From a virus: a stretch of 41,255 bases of DNA. A model generated the notes under the pieces. The model searched no databases and was not told where the DNA came from. It was given only the letters and a program-made list of their open reading frames with translations. The translations under genes were made by a program, and so were the position numbers. Where the stretch lies: IMG/VR virus record IMGVR_UViG_3300024265_000111, positions 1 through 41,255 of that record. The stretch is one strand, 5' to 3'. Within the stretch, counting starts at the first letter, position 1. The number at the start of each line of letters is the position of its first letter. Shown here in pieces: positions 5,227-41,255 of this stretch.

Positions 5227-5313
5227 TTATTTCCTCAGTAAATAAAGAACAAATTCATAACTGCAAATCACTCCAATCGCATAAAGGACATTAAAAATAA
5301 AATCATTTAACAT
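5227..5313 (-). CDS. Tiny membrane peptide overlapping the recombinase 3' end
   Basis: A 28-codon ORF (MLNDFIFNVLYAIGVICSYE, then FVLYLLRK). ATG 5313 lies inside the last codons of the recombinase gene, 10 nt after GAGGGGGTGAG. The stop sits just before the GGAGG of the next gene, so it fills the gap perfectly. It has a single predicted membrane helix. Its length makes chance possible. Confidence 0.4.
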   Translation of the reverse strand: MLNDFIFNVLYAIGVICSYEFVLYLLRK

Positions 5314-6271
5314 CGAATTTTCTCACCCCCTCTTTCAGGGTTTCCCGATCCGTCCTGGCATAGATCAAAGTGGTCTTGAAATCTGAATGCCCCATCAGTT
5401 CCTGGATGGTGGTCAATGCCACCCCCTGCTTTATCAGGTAACAGGCTCCGAAATGCCGGAAGTTGTGCATAGCCCTGCCATGAACCCAGCCACAAGCCTT
5501 AAATGCCCTGCCAACTGACGAACAGACAGCTTCATGCCTCATTCCAGGGAACCACCGGCCGTCATCCTTTAATGGTATAGGTATCCCCCTGAATGCCTCT
5601 CTCAGCTTATTGGTCATGGGTACGAATAAGGGGGGTTTGTTCTTATAGCGGGTTTTGCGGCGGGTATAGGTGATTCCTGCATCGGGACCATTGAAAACAA
5701 CCTGGCCTTTGGTGAGATGCAATAAGTCTGAGAGAGGCATAGTGGAATACATGGCCACATGGGCAATACCTTTATATATTTTCCTTCTGGATCCGCAGGC
5801 CAGATTTTGAATGACAGCGTTTGCCATTTCTTCAGAGACTATCTGGGATCCGTCAAACTTTTTGCCGGGTCGCAGGACAAGGCTTTTGTAGTCGATTTGC
5901 AAACCAAGCTCCACAGGAACCCGCATTATTGATAGAGCGGTGGATTCAACATATTTTTCCGAGAGCCTGACAGCCCACGCCTGAATATCTATTTCTGATA
6001 ATCGCTTGCCGGTGAACTCCGGAACCAAATGGTTTTTTAAATTCATAAGTTTGTTTTTGCGGTCTACTTGTGGATCATACTTCTGCACAAGATCATCGAA
6101 CTTGATAAGATAAAATTGGTAGCGCCCTTCCCGTATCAACATGAATATTTCCGCCAACCGTTCAACCGCAATTTGCTGGTCAGTAGTTTTTAACGATTGC
6201 CTCAAAAGGATTTTCATATAAGTACAATTGCAGTACCAATATTTTCCTTTCTTAATAATCAAATCTGCCAT
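5303..6271 (-). CDS. int: Tyrosine recombinase (integrase), with an apparent change at catalytic Arg I
   Basis: 322 residues from ATG 6271 (MADLIIKKGKYWY), 7 nt after AGGAGGGG. An upstream in-frame extension has no ribosome site. The C-terminal catalytic domain shows the beta-hairpin Lys (TRRKTRYKNK), HNFR (H-x-x-R), LMGH and the nucleophile Tyr in TTLIYAR. The segment aligning with the usual TGLRxSELL reads STMPLSDLL, so the first catalytic arginine appears to be proline (codon CCT; CGT would be Arg). It may be inactive, or Arg I may come from elsewhere. The N-terminal half is helical, as in core-binding domains. It is the last large gene of the early operon. No att site was recognised. Confidence 0.85.
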   Translation of the reverse strand: MADLIIKKGKYWYCNCTYMKILLRQSLKTTDQQIAVERLAEIFMLIREGRYQFYLIKFDDLVQKYDPQVDRKNKLMNLKNHLVPEFTGKRLSEIDIQAWAVRLSEKYVESTALSIMRVPVELGLQIDYKSLVLRPGKKFDGSQIVSEEMANAVIQNLACGSRRKIYKGIAHVAMYSTMPLSDLLHLTKGQVVFNGPDAGITYTRRKTRYKNKPPLFVPMTNKLREAFRGIPIPLKDDGRWFPGMRHEAVCSSVGRAFKACGWVHGRAMHNFRHFGACYLIKQGVALTTIQELMGHSDFKTTLIYARTDRETLKEGVRKFDVK

Positions 6272-6416
6272 AGGTATCCCCTCCTGTTTATAACGGTGAC
6301 TATTCACCATCCAAGGAGGTAAAGATACCATATTCAGATTTTTAGTTATTCCGAGCATTGTTTCCTTAAAGTTTTCGCGGACGGCCCCTGAAGGAGGGGG
6401 ACAAGGGCCACCGGGA

Positions 6417-6641
6417 TTAACCGGATTTGTCCGCACTTGTCCGCATTTCTCTTGCTCTCAATCTGGATGCCCTCAACTGCACGTCATATTCAGGGACATA
6501 TATTTTGTCGCCGTTAACCTGGTCGCACATCCAGAGATAGGCTTCCCCGCCAAACTTCTTAACAAATTGTTTCCAAATCTCTTGGTCGGGAGAGATGCCC
6601 TTGATATCCTCAATCCTGAAATCCTGTTCAATTTTATCCAT
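6417..6641 (-). CDS. Small Mor-like protein, possibly truncated
   Basis: 74 residues starting MDKIEQDFRIEDIKGISPDQ after GAGGGAAT. The segment KKFGGEAYLWMCDQVNGDKIYVPEYDV resembles the N-terminal dimerisation part of Mor/Mga-type transcription activators (an iG.ea...fGG..iYVP pattern). The usual C-terminal helix-turn-helix is missing and the protein stops soon after RLRAREMRT. It may be an early regulator or excisionase substitute next to the recombinase. Family assignment is tentative. Confidence 0.5.
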   Translation of the reverse strand: MDKIEQDFRIEDIKGISPDQEIWKQFVKKFGGEAYLWMCDQVNGDKIYVPEYDVQLRASRLRAREMRTSADKSG

Positions 6642-15944: not shown

Positions 15945-17398
15945 TATTGTTTCCTTCTAATGGTGAATGTTCTTTTGGCAGGAGTTTGGGGCTGTGGCGT
16001 GACACCTTTAAGTTTTTCCTGTTGTTCAACAAATTTAGAAATTGTATTTCCGGGTTTCCCAAGAAATATAGCCGCCTCGGTGGCAACACGTATTTTTTCT
16101 CTCATCACCCTTTTTTTATTTGCAAGCCATGTTTTTAATGTAGCTTCATCAAAATTTAATGGAAGGGCACTCCTTAAAGCAAATGCCCTTTCTGCATCGG
16201 ATAAATTACCAAATGATGTAGCACCAAGAACATCTAATCCTAATTGATTTTGAACATCTTCAAGACGCTTAGACGCTTCATCAATGCTTGTAAGCCGACT
16301 AGCCACCACTCCTGTTCTGGCCCCATCATCCAAGGCTTGTATTGCATCCTCAATATTGAGAATGTTTTTATTAAGTTCAGGCAATTGCCCAAAAAATTTT
16401 GAAGATGCTTTCGCCGATTCTCCTCCTGAAACCTGTGCTTGTTTTTTTGCCCCAGCCACATCAATTTCGCTTTGTTGAGCCGCATCTAATACCTCGATTC
16501 TCTTATCTCCTGCAACAGGATTGCCTGCCCTATCTTTTACGGTGGACTTCCCGTCTGGTGAAATAAGGACAGTAGTTCCATTCGGGAAAATTTTAGATTT
16601 AGCAGAAAACAAACCGACATCACCTTTAGTCAAGTTTTTGAGTTCAGCTTCAATGCTCTTATTAGCCTCCTCTGTAGTGATAAACTTGTTTTCTAAATCT
16701 CCTCGGATTTTAGCAAGTTTTGTGCTTCGGGTTTGTACCGCCCTGCCTTCCTTCCGCTTGGCAAGCTCATCATCAATAAGGATTTTTTCTGGTTCAGTAT
16801 CACTAATGCCTTTTTCTATCGTCAAGTTCACAAGATCGGGGTTCTGTTGACCGGATAATTGCACTAACTTTTCACTTTCTTTTTCAGAATACAAACCACT
16901 TTCCACAAGCTGTTTAATTCCTTCTTGAAGTTGAAGTGGTCCTTTTTTGTTTTGTTCCTGTAAAAATCTCCAACCCCTGAAACGCCTGTCTGTTTGCCTG
17001 GCTTTCTGCTCTAACTGGAAATCGCTGGACTTGGAAAGAAAATTCAGGATAGGTGCCGCTAAACTCGGGTTAATAGCAACCGCCTCAGCAAATTTTTTCC
17101 TTGACCTGTCAGTTGCAAAAACAAAACCATCAACCCGCCCTCGCCCTCTTTTTTCGCCGGGTTCTCCGGGTTCCCCTGCGCCACTAATATCAACGCCAAT
17201 GGCACCTTCAGTAGCCAAGGCCGCAGCTTCCCTATCATCAAGTTCCTGTTGTCGTTTGAGTTCGGCCGCGTTAATGATCTCCTGCTTTTCTTGCCGTTTC
17301 AATTGGATAAGCTCTTCTTGCCTTTGCCTGGTCTGGGCGGCATTAAAAGCGGAAAAGAAATTCTGTGCTGCTGATGTCAATGGTCCCTGCTGTGCCAT
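15944..17398 (-). CDS. DNA ejection protein, gp20-like
   Basis: 484 residues, strongly helical and Gln/Lys/Glu-rich (QTRQRQEELIQLKRQEKQEI, AKRKEGRAVQTRSTKLAKIR). The start overlaps the stop of the gp7-like gene at 17398, and its own stop overlaps the next start. The C-terminal half (LTSIDEASKRLEDVQNQLG, WLANKKRVMREKIRV) is a common internal virion-protein pattern. It probably forms the periplasmic part of the ejection tube with its neighbours. Confidence 0.65.
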   Translation of the reverse strand: MAQQGPLTSAAQNFFSAFNAAQTRQRQEELIQLKRQEKQEIINAAELKRQQELDDREAAALATEGAIGVDISGAGEPGEPGEKRGRGRVDGFVFATDRSRKKFAEAVAINPSLAAPILNFLSKSSDFQLEQKARQTDRRFRGWRFLQEQNKKGPLQLQEGIKQLVESGLYSEKESEKLVQLSGQQNPDLVNLTIEKGISDTEPEKILIDDELAKRKEGRAVQTRSTKLAKIRGDLENKFITTEEANKSIEAELKNLTKGDVGLFSAKSKIFPNGTTVLISPDGKSTVKDRAGNPVAGDKRIEVLDAAQQSEIDVAGAKKQAQVSGGESAKASSKFFGQLPELNKNILNIEDAIQALDDGARTGVVASRLTSIDEASKRLEDVQNQLGLDVLGATSFGNLSDAERAFALRSALPLNFDEATLKTWLANKKRVMREKIRVATEAAIFLGKPGNTISKFVEQQEKLKGVTPQPQTPAKRTFTIRRKQ

Positions 17399-26333: not shown

Positions 26334-27707
26334 CTAGCCGTCATATCCAAGGCCCTGTAGATCCGGGGCAGTGAATTTCTTTTTGGTATCTCGCTCTGGT
26401 TTTGTCAGACCAGGAAATAACTCATAAGCCCCCCATACCAGCCAATCAGCTCTATTTGGGGACTTGCTTCCACTGTATCCAGTAGTCGTAAAAGCTAACA
26501 ATTCGTCCTCTAAATCATCGAAGCGGCCTATAAACTTGATTTTCCCCGTTTCATGCAAAGCACTGACAGGTTCAGCCCTGATTGCCTTACCTCTTGAAGC
26601 ACTCACAGACTTGTAGGAAACAATAATCTTGGCCTTGGCGGCAGCCGTTTGAACCACAAACTTGACCATTTCTCCACCATAATTGTTTTCCCCTACCACC
26701 CTGTCGGCATCATGCCTCTGATAAGCCTGGACAACCACACCGCCCCACTTGGCAGGACCGGCATGAAGGGTCAAATCCTCAAACACATAAGCGTTGCCAT
26801 CGGATCCTAAACCCATCACCCCAATGCCGATATCATCATTGCTCTCTTCAGGGTCGTCACTGGCTCCTGACGGGTCCACAGGCACAATCATGCGAATCAT
26901 GGTTACATTCTCAGGGACACCATCAACCCTGTTGTCATTGATGATTTTCTCAGTCCATAGGGCGTTTTCAGTCTCATCGGTGAATAGGCCTAAATAGAAC
27001 CTATCGCGCTGTCTTTTTGGTAAATCGTTTAATTCGTCAAGATATTCTTCTGAAAGGTTCTCTTTGTTGTCCACCGGGTTCATTAACAAGCTGGCATATT
27101 TCTCTGGATTCTTTAATGCCAGGCGAGTAACAGGGTCTTTCTTTTCAAGAAATAACTTGTGGCTCCAATGTCCTTTAGTGGGTGGGTTCTCGTCATAAAA
27201 CATCTTTAAACGCAGTATCTTAGTCACCCCATCCACGACATAAGGACACTTCTGTGCCAGCCTGGTGATCAGAAGCAGCCTGTTTGAATAAGATATCTGC
27301 GAACATTCGTTCAACGTGATGGTGGCGTACTCGTTACCGAGAATCTTTTCAGCCCTTTCCTTGTCATCCAGGCCACCGAACCATAGCTCTGAGCCATTCT
27401 GGAACTTGGCATAAAAGTCCACGTTGTCCTGATGCCACTTCATTCCCGGCCAGCAAAGCCTCATTACCTTGGGGAACGTATCGAGCATGACTGACTTCTT
27501 GACGCTGTTGAACCTGAACCTGGCAATCAAATGCCTTGAACTGGGAACGGCCAGAGCTCTAATCACTTTGGACCGAACCAATGTGAAGGTCTTGGTAGAG
27601 CGCGACCCGCCGTACAACAGGATATGCTTGGCAGGGCTACTGATTAGATCAATGGCCTCTTCCTGCTTGCTGGTCAGGGTGAATTCTTGTTCAAGCGTTG
27701 CTGTCAT
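26334..27707 (-). CDS. terL: Terminase large subunit
   Basis: 457 residues. Walker A is LLYGGSRSTKT (about 31-41), the Walker B region is ATITLNECSQISY with the catalytic Glu, and the nuclease domain has VDPSGASDD, VVGENNYGGEMV and a C-terminal acidic region (NRADWLVWGAYEL). AGAGG precedes the ATG. The ATPase pumps DNA into the procapsid through the portal, and the RNase H-like domain cuts it. P22 relatives package headfuls, which fits a circular assembly. Confidence 0.93.
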   Translation of the reverse strand: MTATLEQEFTLTSKQEEAIDLISSPAKHILLYGGSRSTKTFTLVRSKVIRALAVPSSRHLIARFRFNSVKKSVMLDTFPKVMRLCWPGMKWHQDNVDFYAKFQNGSELWFGGLDDKERAEKILGNEYATITLNECSQISYSNRLLLITRLAQKCPYVVDGVTKILRLKMFYDENPPTKGHWSHKLFLEKKDPVTRLALKNPEKYASLLMNPVDNKENLSEEYLDELNDLPKRQRDRFYLGLFTDETENALWTEKIINDNRVDGVPENVTMIRMIVPVDPSGASDDPEESNDDIGIGVMGLGSDGNAYVFEDLTLHAGPAKWGGVVVQAYQRHDADRVVGENNYGGEMVKFVVQTAAAKAKIIVSYKSVSASRGKAIRAEPVSALHETGKIKFIGRFDDLEDELLAFTTTGYSGSKSPNRADWLVWGAYELFPGLTKPERDTKKKFTAPDLQGLGYDG

Positions 27708-29712: not shown

Positions 29713-32700
29713 TCACACTAATTGATCAGAGTGGCGCAGACGTTTTGCGTTTTTAAATATAATCCGACCAGCAACCAACCACATATCCCTGGCCGATGTA
29801 TTATCGGCAAAAATACCGGCTATCAACTCTTCTGTTGCCCCGGTAGCTCCGGCTTCGTTGGCACCAAGGGCGCGGCGCAACACAAGGCTATTTTGTCCAA
29901 AAATACTATCGCCCTGTCTTGTAACAAGGCTAAGATTCACATTGCCAGTAGTATTAATTAATTCCGCAGCTCTTGTACCGTCTCCGAACTTGAAAGCACC
30001 TGCTCCCAAAATATGGGGTCCACCATCAGCATCCTGCATAGAATCATCCCGAAATGAGGCATACCCAAATACTCGACTTTCCGGAACGGCGTTTACGTCT
30101 TGCGCTCCATCACCAGCAACAAATAGTAATAACGCATCACCAAAACTTGCCGCGTCCTCATCACCATAAAAACTACTGACACCCGCACTATCAAAAAAGA
30201 CACTAGTTCCGGCTGCAATTTTAATGGGGCTGCCATCGTTACCATTTTCGGTCAAAAAGTTCCAAACAAGGCCCTCGAAACTCTCCACAAAATCTTTGTT
30301 TGCAACCTCAATGCCGGCAGTTGGTGCCCTGGAATAAGTGGCCCCTTCTTCTGTTTTGAAGTTTTTATATATGGTGCTGATATCAGCGAGCTTAAAAGAA
30401 CCATTGGGGCCAGTTCCAATCTGTGAACCAACCCCCCGGGTATCATCGAAAGCCCATACACGCATAGAAATATCAGGGCCCAGGAAAGTGCCTGGAGGAG
30501 CCTGACCATTTAAGGCAGATACATTAATCTGACCAAGGGCAGATTCAGTACCCGCCCAAAATGGAATAACGGTCCCGTTAAAAATTTGTGTGGGAATAGA
30601 TGGTAGTGCGTAGGGCGTATCTCCTACCGCTTTATCAAAACAAATAGTCACATTTGCAACGGTAGGACTAAATCCTTCATGGAAATAAAGTAGCGTGTAT
30701 CTGGTATTTGCCTCAACAGCCACATTAAAACCTAAGCCAAGGACTAGGGTGTCAAACCATCCTTCTAAAATTCCATTCTCGAAAAATATGGAAGTCCCAG
30801 AAGCTCCCGAGCCACCATCAAAGATTTGCTGATATGTGGTTACATCAGCCCCCGTTTCAAAGGAGAATGCAAAAGCTACCTTGCCATCCTCAAAAAGAGA
30901 TAAATTTGTGTTAATTGTATGATCCCAAAGGAGGTTCTGAATACCTCTATATGACCCTGTGACATTAAAGCCAAACGTTGTATTTTCTGTAAGAAGTGTC
31001 GATACCTCATCAACAAGCAAAATATCTGATTGCACAATATTCTTGTCATCAGAATACTTTTTAGTAGCTGCTTGTTGGTCTTTTAATGGGTCGCTCACAT
31101 TATCAAGAATCTTTGGGTCATCTTTAATCGCTACCCTGTCAGGACCAAGAGGGACAGCTTCATATTGGGCAAGGGTAGTATCTCCAAATATGTTCAACTT
31201 CCCACCCGTACCTAAGAACGGTGCTGCTCCTGACACAATTGTAAATGATGGCCCAAAGGTATCTAGGAATCCCCGTTGGTCTGCGTTGTTAAAGAACAGG
31301 GGAGATGCTGCTAATATGAAGGTGAGAACCTGATTAACCGCTCGAGGCCGCGAACCATCCTCTGTGCGATACGCATTGACTCTAATATTTCCCCCACCTA
31401 CATCTAACAACTCAAAGACCATCCTATAAAACTTATTTGCCTCTACAAAAATAGCATCTCTAAAGATGGGATTTGAGTCATCAGCAAATCGCATAGCCAG
31501 AAGTTCATTTTGGATAAAGAAAGATACTCCTGGGGCATCATCACCCAAGGCTAGTATTACCTGCGTTGTGGTGATGTCTACGCCAGTTGTGAACTCAACT
31601 TCATAAATAGAAGAGCTATCGTTCCCCAAATCAAATGTTTCAACCGCAATGTTCCTGACCCCTTCTATCTGGTAGGTCGGGGAAGGAGGAAGGAGTTCAA
31701 ATAAAGACTGCTCCTCTGGGAGGATCCACTTTTGAGTTGCGTACTCCTCAACTTGATTGATCTCATCTGCAGTTAAAATGCGATCATACACAATCACTTC
31801 TGCAATTTTACCCTTCCAAAATCGACTTGAGAAATCCTGTGACACCTGAGGAATGAAGGCACCCGGGGCAAGAGCAAGGGCGGTCAAAACAAAAGGCTGG
31901 TTTAGCTCCACTCTTTCTTCCACCGCCCCGTCAATACGCATTGATCCGTCGAATGTAAAATCTTCTGAGGAAGGGATAGGAGGGAAAACAGGATTACCAA
32001 AAAATCTTTGGAACGCTGCGTCCATTTTTATATTTTCATCATTAGCCCCAGCCTCATTAAAAAGACCGGCAAGGTCAACAAACCCGGGGTCAAGTTCTGC
32101 AATTATAAAGATAGTCCCGGCAGTAATAGATGTGGAAGCCGGCATAAACTGGTTGGTACCGTCAAAACCAAGTACATTCCTACTATTGATTTTATCTACA
32201 CCCGTTTCCGGTTGAGCTGGCGCACTTGCTTGAGCGAAATCAACTCCATTTCCGCTTTTATCATTCCATGCACTAACAGCTCCAAGAGCCTCAGTGATTG
32301 TATTGACATCACTAGCATCCAGCCATAAAGACAATCCCGTGAGTTGGGTTGGATTGAAAGGAAGAACCGCATCCAGCGTCCTTTTATTAACCCCATCCTT
32401 TTCATCAACAGGATCCTCCATGTTGATCGCTTTCATTCCACGCAGATCATGGTTGAACGGATTATTAGAAGGTTGAGCAAGCGTTTCATCCCCGTCATTC
32501 GCGCCATCTTCACCATCCCACTGGAACACAACCCCAACAGGCACAGTTGTAATCATGTATGTACCTTCAATTGTGGTAGTCCCTTGTGTAGAAACCGCGG
32601 CGAAAATACCGTTACCGGTTTCTGCCACTTGGATTGTTTCTATAAGCGTATCGTCCGGACCGAACCATTTAATTTCGCCAGGACCATCACCGAACGCCGT

Positions 32701-35700
32701 CCATTCAGGGTTGCTTGAATCTTCGGTATTTGGCGGCGATATAAAAAATGTGCCTAGCTCAAGTCCGAAGGCGGCATCAACCGCGCCGCTACCCTGACCG
32801 TCACCAACCGATATCGCGGACACAAGCCCGTCGGCTTGAACTCGAAATACTTTCGCGGCTGTTCTTCCAGCACCACCGAGCGTATCCGCGCCAAAGTTGG
32901 ATATATCTAAAAACTGAAAGGGTGTGAGCGCGCCAACTTGATCGCCCGATTGTGTTTTAAGATTAAAATTAACGGTAGTGTCGGTATGGTTGAGTAACAA
33001 CGTTATTCCTGCACCAGAGCCCAATATCTCCGTGCTTCCTTGCTTAATCGGAATGGTATCAAAACCCGCATCGCCTCTGGAAATTCCGGACAACTTCGCA
33101 CCATTTCGTGCTTTGATTAAGAAAGTTCTATTGATAAATCCAATTGGAAGGAAGACAGCCGTTGAACCATCAAACTCCACAGTATTAGCGGGAACAGTTG
33201 TGCTAATCGTTGTATCGAAAACGTCTATTGTGTCCGGCTTATCTGCAACAACAACGAAACCCGCAGAACCTCCGCCGTTTCTTGTCAGGTTTCTAGCAAA
33301 ACTAAACGCGGTTATGGACGGATTGATAAGCGGCTGAATACCAAAATCAGTTCCACCCTGATAAACCGCGTGGAACGGATGGTGCGTTAAATTTTGTGTA
33401 CAAAAAACATCCCCTGCATTTACAGTTCCCGCCGATACCTCAAAATGTTTTATGGAATCCGAGGTAACAAATAACAGATTCCCATTCTGAAAGAACTCAG
33501 TGCCGACCACAGGGGAAGCCATAATTATCTTCTTATTGCCTGTGTGGGCGATCAATGGTTGTTGATTAAAATTAAATGGTGAAATATCAAACAAAGCAGG
33601 AGGGATTGCCGCCTTGGTTATGCTAACCGCTTGGTCTAAGGATACGGTGTTATCTTTTAAAAATTTCAGGTTAACGGCTTCGTCATCTAAAAGCGGTTCC
33701 CTAATACTTCCGAGAAAAACATCCTCATCTCTTGACGTATATTTAACGCCTGCTGCTAAAGTGATATCTTCAATTAAAAAGTTACTGAAATCCGACCCGG
33801 TACCAATCAACGAGCCGGTAGTAGGCTCAACATTGAAAGCACTCCTTCCACCAGCCGCCCATATTTTCAACCGTAAATTAGTGCCTAAAAAATCGCCTAC
33901 TATATCGGACACAGAGCTTGAATTAAATGTTCCAAGTGCGGATGTATCACCACCCCACCAACCGCGTACCGAAACGTCCACAACCGCCGGAGTATTAAAC
34001 GCATCCGTGGTTAAAAAGAAATCTCCTTTAGAAAAATGGATCGTTTCAACCGCGTCCGCCAAAGCAACGCCTTTGCCATTGTTATGTAAAATAACAACTG
34101 TATAAGTTGTGTTCGGTTCAATCGCTTGGATCCAGTCTGCATTGGCAACATTACCACCCGCATCTAAAGTGGAGTAGAGTTCTAATTGCCCGTTTCTGAT
34201 AATAAGATTTACGCCGTCGGTGTTGACTAAAAACTCCAACACATTCTGATCGGTCGTTATATCCGAACCCGTTGTAAAGGATGTGGCAATAGCCGCATGA
34301 CCTCGTTCAAAGGTATCTCGGGTAACGGTCGATCCATGAAACCAACCCAAATCAAAAATAGGACCAGCGGATGCGTCATACTCACCATTTACTTTTTGTC
34401 CTAGAGTAGCTAGGTCATCAGCTATTTCAGGTGCTATAGCTAGCGGAAAGCCCACTGCTTTTGTGAACAAACCTGCCTCTATCCACTTGCGTTTTGCGTA
34501 TCCTTCAAGGTCTTCCATTTCGGCCGTTGTCAATAGGCGATCATAAGCAAATATCTCCGCCACTTTTCCTTTCCAGAAACGACCCAAGAGGCCTTGCGAT
34601 ATTTGCGGAGTGAAAGTTTTCGCTGTCGGGGAGATGGCGGTTAAAACGAAAGGTTGATTTAATTCGACCCGTTCTCCTAACGCTCCATCAATACGCATAG
34701 AACCGCCAAAGGTAAAGTCGTCCACAGTTGGGAGTGGGGATTCGGTAGCATTGCCAAGGAACCGCTGACTGCTTGCTTCAATTCGTATATTTTCAGAACT
34801 TACCGCCCGTTGTGTGAAAACACCGGCCAAGTCCGGAAAACCCGGATCAACTTCCGCGACTATAAATATAGTTTGCATAGTCATGGTATCTTCATCAGCA
34901 TGGGTGAAATCACCAACACCATCAAAACTGATTACGTTTCTACCATTTAGTTTATCTATGCCCGTTGAAGGTTCGTTGCCAGGATTTGGAGTGCTGAAAT
35001 CATTTCCATTTGCACTTTTGCAACGCCATTCCATAAGTTTGTTTGCAGTTGCATCAATTGTGCTGGGATCATCCGCATCTAACCATAAAGACAAACCTGC
35101 TATCTGGCTTGGATTAAAAGGGAGGGCTTCCTCCAATGCGGCCTTATTCACAACCTGGTTAGCTTCCCGAGGCGCGGCGACACCTTCAATTATAACATCG
35201 GCATCTTTGGCTATATATTTAACCGGAGTCTCTGGTTCAGTCACGAAAGTAGTTTCAGGCAACCAGGGACTTGTGCTGCTGTTGCCCGCTGTTCCTAGCA
35301 TCCGATAAAACTTGAACGGTTCAGTTACGGTAATATCCCAAGTTGTAAAGAGTGGAGCCCAAGCCACAGCAGAGGAGACATCTACCCAAATAACACCATC
35401 AGCCGATGATTGAATTTTCCATGTTCCTACATTAACGGTATTACTTTTATCCTGTATCAACTTTTGCAAACGAACAGGAGTATTAAATTCGTATTGAATG
35501 AATTTATCCAATACGGCAATGCTATTGCCAAAGGCCCACGCATCTATTGCGTTACCACCAATTAACCCGTTCACCAAATGTTCTGGCAACGTGCCAGCAA
35601 AGTTTGTAAATGCAGGGTCTTTTGTTACGGTGATAATAGAAATCCTATCACCACTGTCAAAGGCTGAGTTATCCGGAATAGCTTCTACCTTTGTGAAGAA

Positions 35701-36882
35701 ATCACCCTCATCTACATATCTTTTGTTTGCAGCCTCATCTTCTAAGAGAGGATTATCAATACTCCCAAGAAAAACATCACTATCATCAGACGTATATTTA
35801 AACTTTGGCGTTAGCGTGAAAACAGTTTCAGGCAAAAACGGGGTGGTGCTACTATTTCCGCCTTGACCGAGCATCCGATAAAAAGGAAAGGCTTCGGTAA
35901 CTGTGATAGGCCATTCGGTAACTATTGGAATCCAAGCCACTGTGGGGGAAACATCCACCCAAATAACACCATCAAGTGACGCTTGAATTTTCCATGTCCC
36001 CACATCGGTCAGATCACTTTTAGCCTGTCTAAAAGTTTCCAAGCGAACAGGGACATTAAATTCGTACTGGATGAATTTATTAAAAACCGCGATAGCATTT
36101 CCGAAAGCCCATGCGGCGGTTGCATTGGAACCGGTCAATCCATTCACAAGATGTTCCGGTAATGTACCTGCGAAATTTGTAAAGGCGGGGTCCTTTGTTA
36201 CTGTGATGATTGAGATTCTATTGCCACTCTCAAAAACAGAATGAACATCTGATCTCGTAAATAACCCGCTAACTATTACCCAATCTTGGAAGTTAGGAGG
36301 TAAAGGATCGGTAACATTAAGATACGCAGTTCCATCATTCACATTAAAAACACTATCAGGAATAGGGGTTACAGGGCTATCTACTGAGCCCACACCTGCA
36401 GTGTAGGTAACTTTTGAAATTCTGTTATCACGCAAAACAGTATAAGCAAGAGTAGTCGGGCCATCGGGAATACTAAAGGCCGTTTGCATTCCTGAGAGAG
36501 CTAAAGCCTCAGTATCAAAATTCACTATACTTAAAAACTTAACGACCGATGTGGTATCGGTGGCATCTATAACAGTCCAGGACGATGTTCCATTAGCATA
36601 ATGATGCCCCTCATCGAGATTCAACACAGAGCTAGGCAATGGGGGTGGAGTTAACGAAGAGCCTGTTGGGGCACCGCTAGCATAAGTAACATCTGCTATT
36701 CGATTTTCGCCAAGAACTGTATAGGCAAGCTTGCTGATTCCATCGTCTGGGATAGCAAACTTTGCCTTCATTCCAACAAACGCCGCGTTATCTGATGCGT
36801 AGTCAACGGTATCTAAAAATTCAACAACGGATTCAGAACCAACACCAAATCCTATATCAGGGCCCCCTACTTCGATTGACAT
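29713..36882 (-). CDS. Giant lectin-repeat fibre/adhesin-like virion protein
   Basis: 2389 residues, 17 percent of the window. N-terminus (about 18-200): two repeats (FLDTVDYASDNAAFVGM, FLSIVNFDTEALALSGM) each ending YTVLxxNRIxxVTY. Then two discoidin-like repeats (about 213-360, 405-565; ISIITVTKDPAFTNFAGTLP). Two LamG/ConA-like domains (LPFNPSQIAGLSLWLDADDP; LPFNPTQLTGLSLWLDASDV), further ConA-like folds and a non-repeated C-terminus. Domains are joined by fibre linkers of the form D-P-L-x-D-x-A-A-x-K-x-Y. It probably binds glycans on the host. The S74 domain and depolymerase motifs are absent. Confidence 0.75.
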   Translation of the reverse strand: MSIEVGGPDIGFGVGSESVVEFLDTVDYASDNAAFVGMKAKFAIPDDGISKLAYTVLGENRIADVTYASGAPTGSSLTPPPLPSSVLNLDEGHHYANGTSSWTVIDATDTTSVVKFLSIVNFDTEALALSGMQTAFSIPDGPTTLAYTVLRDNRISKVTYTAGVGSVDSPVTPIPDSVFNVNDGTAYLNVTDPLPPNFQDWVIVSGLFTRSDVHSVFESGNRISIITVTKDPAFTNFAGTLPEHLVNGLTGSNATAAWAFGNAIAVFNKFIQYEFNVPVRLETFRQAKSDLTDVGTWKIQASLDGVIWVDVSPTVAWIPIVTEWPITVTEAFPFYRMLGQGGNSSTTPFLPETVFTLTPKFKYTSDDSDVFLGSIDNPLLEDEAANKRYVDEGDFFTKVEAIPDNSAFDSGDRISIITVTKDPAFTNFAGTLPEHLVNGLIGGNAIDAWAFGNSIAVLDKFIQYEFNTPVRLQKLIQDKSNTVNVGTWKIQSSADGVIWVDVSSAVAWAPLFTTWDITVTEPFKFYRMLGTAGNSSTSPWLPETTFVTEPETPVKYIAKDADVIIEGVAAPREANQVVNKAALEEALPFNPSQIAGLSLWLDADDPSTIDATANKLMEWRCKSANGNDFSTPNPGNEPSTGIDKLNGRNVISFDGVGDFTHADEDTMTMQTIFIVAEVDPGFPDLAGVFTQRAVSSENIRIEASSQRFLGNATESPLPTVDDFTFGGSMRIDGALGERVELNQPFVLTAISPTAKTFTPQISQGLLGRFWKGKVAEIFAYDRLLTTAEMEDLEGYAKRKWIEAGLFTKAVGFPLAIAPEIADDLATLGQKVNGEYDASAGPIFDLGWFHGSTVTRDTFERGHAAIATSFTTGSDITTDQNVLEFLVNTDGVNLIIRNGQLELYSTLDAGGNVANADWIQAIEPNTTYTVVILHNNGKGVALADAVETIHFSKGDFFLTTDAFNTPAVVDVSVRGWWGGDTSALGTFNSSSVSDIVGDFLGTNLRLKIWAAGGRSAFNVEPTTGSLIGTGSDFSNFLIEDITLAAGVKYTSRDEDVFLGSIREPLLDDEAVNLKFLKDNTVSLDQAVSITKAAIPPALFDISPFNFNQQPLIAHTGNKKIIMASPVVGTEFFQNGNLLFVTSDSIKHFEVSAGTVNAGDVFCTQNLTHHPFHAVYQGGTDFGIQPLINPSITAFSFARNLTRNGGGSAGFVVVADKPDTIDVFDTTISTTVPANTVEFDGSTAVFLPIGFINRTFLIKARNGAKLSGISRGDAGFDTIPIKQGSTEILGSGAGITLLLNHTDTTVNFNLKTQSGDQVGALTPFQFLDISNFGADTLGGAGRTAAKVFRVQADGLVSAISVGDGQGSGAVDAAFGLELGTFFISPPNTEDSSNPEWTAFGDGPGEIKWFGPDDTLIETIQVAETGNGIFAAVSTQGTTTIEGTYMITTVPVGVVFQWDGEDGANDGDETLAQPSNNPFNHDLRGMKAINMEDPVDEKDGVNKRTLDAVLPFNPTQLTGLSLWLDASDVNTITEALGAVSAWNDKSGNGVDFAQASAPAQPETGVDKINSRNVLGFDGTNQFMPASTSITAGTIFIIAELDPGFVDLAGLFNEAGANDENIKMDAAFQRFFGNPVFPPIPSSEDFTFDGSMRIDGAVEERVELNQPFVLTALALAPGAFIPQVSQDFSSRFWKGKIAEVIVYDRILTADEINQVEEYATQKWILPEEQSLFELLPPSPTYQIEGVRNIAVETFDLGNDSSSIYEVEFTTGVDITTTQVILALGDDAPGVSFFIQNELLAMRFADDSNPIFRDAIFVEANKFYRMVFELLDVGGGNIRVNAYRTEDGSRPRAVNQVLTFILAASPLFFNNADQRGFLDTFGPSFTIVSGAAPFLGTGGKLNIFGDTTLAQYEAVPLGPDRVAIKDDPKILDNVSDPLKDQQAATKKYSDDKNIVQSDILLVDEVSTLLTENTTFGFNVTGSYRGIQNLLWDHTINTNLSLFEDGKVAFAFSFETGADVTTYQQIFDGGSGASGTSIFFENGILEGWFDTLVLGLGFNVAVEANTRYTLLYFHEGFSPTVANVTICFDKAVGDTPYALPSIPTQIFNGTVIPFWAGTESALGQINVSALNGQAPPGTFLGPDISMRVWAFDDTRGVGSQIGTGPNGSFKLADISTIYKNFKTEEGATYSRAPTAGIEVANKDFVESFEGLVWNFLTENGNDGSPIKIAAGTSVFFDSAGVSSFYGDEDAASFGDALLLFVAGDGAQDVNAVPESRVFGYASFRDDSMQDADGGPHILGAGAFKFGDGTRAAELINTTGNVNLSLVTRQGDSIFGQNSLVLRRALGANEAGATGATEELIAGIFADNTSARDMWLVAGRIIFKNAKRLRHSDQLV

Positions 36883-37590: not shown

Positions 37591-37989
37591 TCAGCCCTCT
37601 ACTATTTCGAAGTGGACATAATCGTTAAATGTCTGGTCATTCAGATCCATGTCGCCATCCCAATCCCGGCCCCAGCGCAGCTTGATGCCGCGCTTATGGG
37701 CTATGGCCAGGACGATGCCGGCGAACACACATATTTTTTCTAGGTCTTTATTCCAATCAGGATTGATTGGGAACGGGATGGCATCAATGGCCAGGGATGG
37801 TTTAGTTTGGTGTTTGCCCAGGCGGACCTTTGTTTTCTTTTCGAGGAACAAAGCAAGCTGCTCGGACTCTGTGCGATATCCACAGATTATGGAATGGTCC
37901 ATGACCTGCAGGGCTTCGGTGAATATCCTCTGCAGGCGGAGGTCGCAGGTTTCTAAATTGGTCTGGGAACTGGCAGAGTAATGATTCAT
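37591..37989 (-). CDS. Endolysin, M15 L-alanyl-D-glutamate/VanY-like peptidase
   Basis: 132 residues; starts MNHYSASSQTNLETCDLRLQ. Motifs: IICGYRTESEQ, GKHQTKPSLAID (zinc His and Asp), LRWGRDWDGD and DYVHFEIVEG (second zinc His), as in Peptidase_M15_4 phage endolysins. It cleaves peptidoglycan stem peptides. No signal peptide, so a holin is needed. There is no good ribosome site before ATG 37989, so expression may be low or coupled. Its promoter carries an operator. Confidence 0.85.
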   Translation of the reverse strand: MNHYSASSQTNLETCDLRLQRIFTEALQVMDHSIICGYRTESEQLALFLEKKTKVRLGKHQTKPSLAIDAIPFPINPDWNKDLEKICVFAGIVLAIAHKRGIKLRWGRDWDGDMDLNDQTFNDYVHFEIVEG

Positions 37990-38014
37990 AAAGGCTATGA
38001 CATTTTACGTCACT

Positions 38015-38036
38015 CATGGTTAAAGGATTAACCAAA
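38015..38036. promoter_or_regulatory. Operator-like palindrome at the endolysin promoter
   Basis: On minus, TTTGGTT then 8 nt then AACCATG; the perfect core is TGGTTAA-AGGA-TTAACCA (38017-38034). Half-sites and spacing match the repressor operator 10088-10109. It lies about 16-37 nt downstream of the -10 of the endolysin promoter, where bound protein would block elongation. Confidence 0.55.
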
Positions 38037-38051
38037 CTGCTCTAGCCTTTA

Positions 38052-38080
38052 AATATAGTCTACTTTATTTCGGAATGCAA
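38052..38080 (-). promoter_or_regulatory. Sigma70-like promoter of the endolysin operon
   Basis: On minus, TTGCAT (38075-38080), 17-nt spacer, TATATT (38052-38057): 4/6 and 5/6 matches with optimal spacing. It should drive endolysin, DUF1353, lipoprotein and possibly the giant fibre gene. Confidence 0.6.
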
Positions 38081-38149
38081 CAATTTTTGTCAGTGACAAT
38101 TTTTGGGAAGGTGTCCACTTTTGTTTCACGTGGAACAAATTTTGTCAGT
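38080..38149. repeat. Direct repeats around the parS site
   Basis: ACAATTTTTGTCAGT (38080-38094) and ACAAATTTTGTCAGT (38135-38149) match at 14 of 15 positions, with a partial copy ACAATTTTTG (38096-38105). The outer copies flank parS on both sides. They may be accessory protein-binding sites. Confidence 0.55.
38122..38137. promoter_or_regulatory. parS: Bacterial parS centromere site (ParB-binding)
   Basis: TGTTTCACGTGGAACA is, read on the minus strand, TGTTCCACGTGAAACA, the exact chromosomal parS consensus established in Bacillus subtilis and conserved widely across bacteria. It lies in a non-coding gap upstream of the endolysin promoter. No ParA or ParB gene is in the window, so it could recruit host ParB (CTP-dependent clamp) to the phage genome. 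Confidence 0.8.
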
Positions 38150-38164: not shown

Positions 38165-38204
38165 AAAAAAAAGGCCGACACCCTGAATCAACAGAATGCC
38201 GGCC
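38165..38204 (-). terminator. Intrinsic terminator after the holin-like gene
   Basis: On minus, GGCCGGCA / TGTCGGCC (38197-38204 / 38173-38180) with one G.U pair, followed by T8 (38165-38172). It ends the 41223-38221 transcript and insulates the endolysin promoter downstream. Confidence 0.88.
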
Positions 38205-38220
38205 AACGAATGTTCCTGGA

Positions 38221-38460
38221 TTATTTTGCGGGGACTCTTTGAAGCAATTCCTTTATATCCTTCCTAATATCATTTTGGGTATTCTCGATTCTTCCAATAT
38301 CCTCCCTAATGTTTTCTATGTGTGTCGAGACTACTCCCTTCCAATTCCCGTCATCTGATATCAATTCAAAGGTTTTATACCCGCCACCGCCAATCATGCC
38401 AACAAAAGCAACCATAGCGCCAAGTTTCCCAATTGACATTTCAGTTAAGCCATTCATCAT
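38221..38460 (-). CDS. Small membrane protein, candidate holin
   Basis: 79 residues from ATG 38460 (MMNGLTEMSIGKLGAMVAFV), 5 nt after GGAGG. One membrane segment (IGKLGAMVAFVGMIGGGGY, about 10-28) followed by a helical polar tail (HIENIREDIGRIENTQNDIR). The topology fits single-helix holins or holin-like tail proteins. The endolysin gene lies 230 nt downstream but in a separate transcription unit. Confidence 0.55.
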   Translation of the reverse strand: MMNGLTEMSIGKLGAMVAFVGMIGGGGYKTFELISDDGNWKGVVSTHIENIREDIGRIENTQNDIRKDIKELLQRVPAK

Positions 38461-38594
38461 AGTCTCCTCCAAGTCCACGTTTATACATCTGTCCGGTATA
38501 AATCAACTGTCTACACCAGGACAGAACCTACACATAATATATACCCAAATAGGCAGATGTCCACTATCCAATGTCAAGTCAAATGCTTCTCGGT

Positions 38595-41223: not shown

Positions 41224-41255
41224 TGCTCGTTTCCCATGCGGGAGTAGGGGGGGGG
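41105..41255 (-). pseudogene. Frame-shifted fragment duplicating the outer-membrane protein N-terminus
   Basis: From the contig edge, one frame reads PTPAWETSIEGQAKALRVPR. This matches the mature start of the downstream protein (WEVSIKGQAKALRMP) at 12 of 15 positions, in a different frame from it, then runs out-of-frame through the signal peptide to TGA at 41105. It is either the remnant of a tandem paralogue or an alternative product reached at certain poly-G lengths. Confidence 0.5.
41247..41255. repeat. Poly-G tract at right contig end
   Basis: Nine consecutive G, to be joined with the 26 G at the left end if the molecule is circular. Confidence 0.75.

Follow-up and report, generated by a model that had tools for sequence, protein, structure and literature searches.

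The window analysed here, a linear IMG/VR contig of 41,255 bp that may be incomplete, carries the genes of a tailed phage, among them those for terminase, portal, head and tail proteins, as well as for a RecT-type annealing protein and a tyrosine integrase (5303–6436, minus strand; PF00589 at 39.3 bits against a cut-off of 27.1, and phrog_1), by which the phage should be able to integrate. The contig ends in a G run (41245–41255), preceded by a diverged copy of the sequence around 41060; the run is possibly an assembly artefact. A palindrome of the parS type sits in a 231-bp gap, bounded on one side by a terminator and on the other by an M15-type endolysin gene. Along the minus strand, on which all of these features are read, the order is an 85-aa ORF, the terminator, two 37-bp repeat units, a structured leader and the endolysin gene.

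The 85-aa ORF 5' of the terminator (38221–38478) has no family match and is possibly holin-like, judging by position alone. The hairpin that follows (38173–38204) resembles an intrinsic terminator, with a 13-bp stem containing 8 GC pairs and a T8 tail, and would end the upstream transcript. Repeat unit 1 (38113–38149; ACTGACAAAATTTGTTCCACGTGAAACAAAAGTGGAC) includes the parS palindrome, while unit 2 (38058–38094; ACTGACAAAAATTGTTGCATTCCGAAATAAAGTAGAC), recovered by a repeat search, lies 55 bp away, is 73% identical to unit 1 and has no parS match. An origin of the two units in an IS element or in terminal repeats was rejected after a BLAST search with 161 bp returned no plasmid match and a single 31-bp partial match among phages. 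Unit 2 overlaps a weak candidate endolysin promoter located just downstream of parS (38052–38080), consisting of TTGCAT (38080–38075), a 17-bp spacer and TATATT (38057–38052); this candidate was read by eye and falls under the scan threshold, with 3/6 matches in the first hexamer and 5/6 in the second. The endolysin 5' leader (37989–38051) contains an inverted repeat and is predicted to form a branched hairpin extending to the start codon (MFE −20.1 kcal/mol, z −2.1), a possible means of translational control of the endolysin. The endolysin gene itself (37591–37989, 132 aa), the first gene 3' of parS, was assigned by phrog_465 (E = 6e-28), with Peptidase_M15_4 below its cut-off. Downstream of it, a 2389-aa ORF (29713–36882, minus strand) probably encodes a large tail or structural protein.

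The palindrome at 38122–38137, TGTTTCACGTGGAACA on the plus strand and TGTTCCACGTGAAACA on the minus strand, has 0 mismatches to the parS consensus TGTTNCACGTGNAACA, confirming the 16/16 match reported in the first-pass annotation. It occurs in single copy, being the sole match with up to two mismatches in the window and the sole exact match in the record. On the minus strand it extends to a 20-bp near-palindrome, TTTGTTCCACGTGAAACAAA, with one mismatched pair. Markov models of first to third order built from the window gave an expectation of 3e-5 to 1e-4 exact matches in 41 kb, in agreement with the earlier statement that such a site is very unlikely to arise by chance in a sequence of this length. 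The pattern of parS together with its flank was found in no other viral contig.

Searches of the 41,255-bp record for ParB_N (PF02195) at E ≤ 10 and for the ParA-type AAA_31 domain (PF13614) at E ≤ 1 returned no match, and matches were obtained in control genomes. The absence of parA and parB, which had also been claimed before, thus holds for the sequenced part of a possibly incomplete phage genome. TerL relatives of the phage, retrieved with its terminase large subunit (26334–27707, minus strand; phrog_979, E = 3e-60), were present in bins of Alpha-, Beta- and Gammaproteobacteria, Lentisphaerota and Planctomycetes, several of them in long chromosomal contigs. Because the phage has an integrase and such relatives lie in chromosomal contigs, partitioning as a plasmid prophage is a less likely reading of the site; the original suggestion that host ParA segregates the phage as a low-copy plasmid prophage is weakened by these findings and by the lack of ParA and ParB matches. 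The likely hosts would be expected to possess a ParB that reads the window's parS sequence, since 18 of 20 genomes with TerL relatives have sites that depart from this consensus at one position at most.

Among viral contigs, TerL relatives showed 50–87% identity. One of them, G003 (TerL 68%), has an endolysin gene of the Peptidase_M15_3 type that is preceded at 38 bp by a 15/16 parS with one mismatch (TGTTCCACCTGAAACA / TGTTTCAGGTGGAACA); the product of this gene gave no BLASTP alignment with the window's endolysin. Sites with at most one mismatch are expected 0.009 times in the 58-kb G003 record and about 1e-5 times in its gap of ~72 bp. Its sister G002 encodes an endolysin 65% identical to that of G003 and has a 13/16 site, TGTTCCACAACAAACA, at the homologous position. 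The spot before the lysis enzyme is thus occupied in three phages, by a 16/16 (window), a 15/16 (G003) and a 13/16 (G002) match; G003 and G002 share related structural genes with the window, and none of the relatives found has a gap identical to the window's. Among 80 M15_3 endolysin relatives, a site within 250 bp upstream was present in G003 and G002 alone, and the 13/16 match taken by itself is within chance (0.9 expected at up to three mismatches across these loci). Conservation of parS in the window's own lineage is for these reasons suggestive, not strong.

Other, more distant TerL relatives contained no parS site in the portions examined, and a search with the window's endolysin recovered a single distant relative, whose 130-kb record has no parS site. 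Several matches were set aside: the gene for the major head protein in L278 contains TGTTGCACGTGAAACA, which was taken as chance, TGTTCCACCTGAAACA recurs inside an ordinary chromosomal membrane-protein gene (G096:C305), and TGTTTCACGTGGAACA lies within chromosomal housekeeping genes (G089:C40). In a Rhodoferax MAG, on a contig that also encodes a TerL relative, TGTTTCACGTGGAACG (L283:8053-8068) lies just 5' of a gene that, judged by eye, resembles the ParB_N/Srx type, and the next gene resembles a C5 DNA methyltransferase.

Across IMG/VR, the exact parS pattern occurred at no fewer than 120 loci. A control palindrome with a CAGCTG core also occurred at no fewer than 120 and a reversed-palindrome control at 2, and raw counts were dropped as evidence of enrichment. 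As these counts are uninformative against the CAGCTG-core control, coding context and multiplicity were compared instead. Among the matches listed, with one site taken per locus, no ORF of at least 100 aa covered parS in 45% of cases, versus 17% for random positions in the same loci, whereas the corresponding values for the control palindrome, again among the matches listed, were 7% and 9%; the noncoding excess of parS over the control gave a Fisher p of 5e-12. Multicopy loci were likewise confined to parS among the matches listed (17/120 versus 0/120; Fisher p = 8e-6). Some of the parS-bearing contigs may be plasmid or host DNA, and the genes found flanking parS are phage genes, among them terL (four), the terminase small subunit, portal and endolysin. 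The TIGR00180 cut-off for partition ParB was exceeded in 0 of 50 parS-bearing records, many of which are fragments.

The same 16-mer recurs in unrelated phages. An endolysin gene in an unrelated contig (L129) is preceded by an exact parS at a distance of 22 bp, with an imperfect copy ~30 bp further upstream. Two viral contigs have multiple exact copies, five at L065:2657-3444 and three at L048:5525-12145, several of them just 5' of a likely ribosome-binding site. No usable named isolate relatives of the other parS-bearing contigs were obtained.

That phages lacking ParB can be under selection to keep a ParB-type site is well supported by the pattern of sequence conservation in a family of marine phages, unrelated to the window's phage, that carry the site before terL. 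This family (L339-L418) was gathered by TerL protein similarity alone, with the TerL of one parS-bearing locus as seed, and 77 loci with enough upstream sequence were counted. An exact parS was located 43–77 bp before the terL start in 64 of the 77 loci, 23 of which have two exact copies; this fraction is biased towards near relatives (86–100% identity) because the seed carried parS. No further site with up to one mismatch was found elsewhere in the terL-family loci, and records as long as 54 kb had parS sites only before terL. ParB_N matches were found in 0 of 22 records of the family.

The 47 exact copies in the 47 distinct leaders vary only at positions 5 and 12, which are the degenerate positions of bacterial parS. 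Changes at these two positions are often matched on both arms, the spacers vary, and copy number is 0, 1 or 2; in leaders that lack parS, the whole block is missing. A TATAAT or TATATT box lies 8–54 bp upstream of the site in all 36 distinct leaders with parS, placing parS between the −10-like box and terL. A role as a packaging site is unlikely in the window because terL is ~10 kb from parS, and such a role is possible for the terL family. The nearest cultured relatives of the family are Pelagibacter phages (TerL 64% and 55%), of which HTVC027P (L419, MN698241.1) has a single one-mismatch site, CGTTTCACGTGAAACA, at 16412–16427 in an intergenic gap near terS. Retention of the site while the flanking sequence diverges is strong in the terL family, and in the window's lineage it amounts to a 15/16 copy in one relative and a 13/16 copy in another.

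Taken together, the noncoding placement, the multiplicity and the terL-family conservation indicate that the orphan parS is a selected element in some phages. The window's own site is probably a selected ParB-type site as well. The proposal that it is a functional ParB-loading site in a phage without parAB gains support from the exact consensus, the near-copy in G003 and the conservation in the terL family. If the site is of this kind, the balance tips slightly towards its acting on the adjacent gene. In the window, the terL family and the L129 endolysin locus, a noncoding parS stands directly 5' of a late gene in DNA without a ParB match, and an effect of host ParB on late genes is favoured because the sites adjoin late genes and are not randomly placed. 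These observations suggest that phages exploit host ParB, probably for late-gene control.

We therefore favour an explanation, to which we assign a rough probability of 0.42 as a whole, in which the chromosomal ParB of the host would load on the phage parS, and ParB-CTP clamps would spread across the endolysin promoter and leader, so as to damp or time late endolysin expression. In the prophage state, the single parS copy would remain covered by ParB. During replication, the phage parS copies would come to exceed the fixed host ParB pool, the clamps would be diluted and the late gene would be released. Host ParB binding, the transcriptional effect and the dosage timer are the parts of this explanation that we infer. 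That dilution of ParB by replicating phage parS serves as a natural timer is speculation, and on the unlikely side. An equally speculative extension, no more probable, is that several unrelated lineages captured the host parS to regulate genes or sense copy number and that ParB restrains both terL and endolysin until replication dilutes it, linking replication to late-gene expression.

Control of the endolysin promoter by ParB fits the anatomy of the gap and the gene-proximal placement of parS in other phages, and the weakness of that promoter by consensus speaks against it. ParB-fold clamps are known to act in both directions, KorB repressing genes (PMC11790492) and VirB activating them (PMC10770331). 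Chromosomal ParB alone represses neighbouring genes weakly, and RNA polymerase can traverse ParB-DNA complexes (PMC11790492). Activation, antisilencing or a slight shift in timing is therefore also possible.

The main rival holds that parS recruits host ParB for segregation or positioning: in a carrier, pre-integration or replicating state, host ParA would tether the phage genomes or spread them, or SMC would be loaded onto them. An exact host-type parS without parAB fits such a role, partition sites require no particular neighbouring gene, and there is a precedent in SGI1, which has parS sites and no Par system and uses the sites for its own stability (PMC10954446). We nonetheless consider it rather unlikely, given the integrase, the relatives in chromosomal contigs and the position of the sites in other phages, which adjoin late-gene promoters and are not random, a placement that segregation alone does not need. 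The site could also have arisen by chance in the window's phage, unrelated to the conserved orphan parS elsewhere. It is present in one copy, is poorly conserved in more distant relatives and comes from one of many windows scanned, and some parS matches in relatives are plainly coding coincidences, as in the head protein gene of L278. This account seems quite improbable against an expectation of at most 1e-4, a noncoding position and a 15/16 version in the same place relative to the endolysin gene in G003. Least probable, in our estimation, is an operator whose sequence coincides with parS by accident and which is bound by another regulator, encoded by the phage or the host, with no part for ParB: the overlap with a promoter-region repeat, the second repeat unit without the palindrome and the 15/16 and 13/16 versions in relatives are as an operator might show, but variation in the terL family is confined to the two degenerate parS positions, a ParB-type signature, and the same 16-mer appears in unrelated phages.

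ParB is one of the most widespread bacterial DNA-binding proteins and its site is nearly universal. A phage without Par proteins that carries parS would therefore gain a regulator or positioning system in most possible hosts. If the favoured reading, control of late genes through host ParB, is correct, ParB joins the host factors exploited by phages. The cultured Pelagibacter phages related to the terL family make the orphan parS testable. An integrated prophage of this kind would also place a ParB/SMC loading site far from oriC, which bears on ectopic chromosomal parS. A literature search that omits most subscription journals and preprints returned no account of orphan parS sites of the chromosomal type in phages, and their novelty is provisional.

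Among known systems, the closest in outline is SGI1 with the IncC ParABS system (PMC10954446), where the parS of a mobile element whose own Par system is incomplete is read by the ParB of another replicon; the window likewise has parS and, within a possibly incomplete record, no Par system of its own. SGI1 differs in that its parS is of the plasmid type and serves its own stability and the expulsion of the helper, whereas the window's site is of the chromosomal type and adjoins a phage late gene. P1, N15 and the extrachromosomal mycobacteriophages (PMC7157519) are also phages with a centromere-like site, but they encode parA and/or parB and do not integrate, while in the window's record an integrase gene is present and the ParA and ParB searches gave no match. 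In the KorB-operator system of RK2 (PMC11790492) and in VirB-virS antisilencing (PMC10770331), a ParB-fold clamp at a palindrome near promoters alters transcription, as proposed here; KorB and VirB are encoded by the same element, whereas the proposed regulator in the window is the ParB of the host. Bacterial chromosomal parS has the identical 16-bp consensus and lies near oriC and parAB, in contrast to the window's site, which a phage carries next to its endolysin gene.
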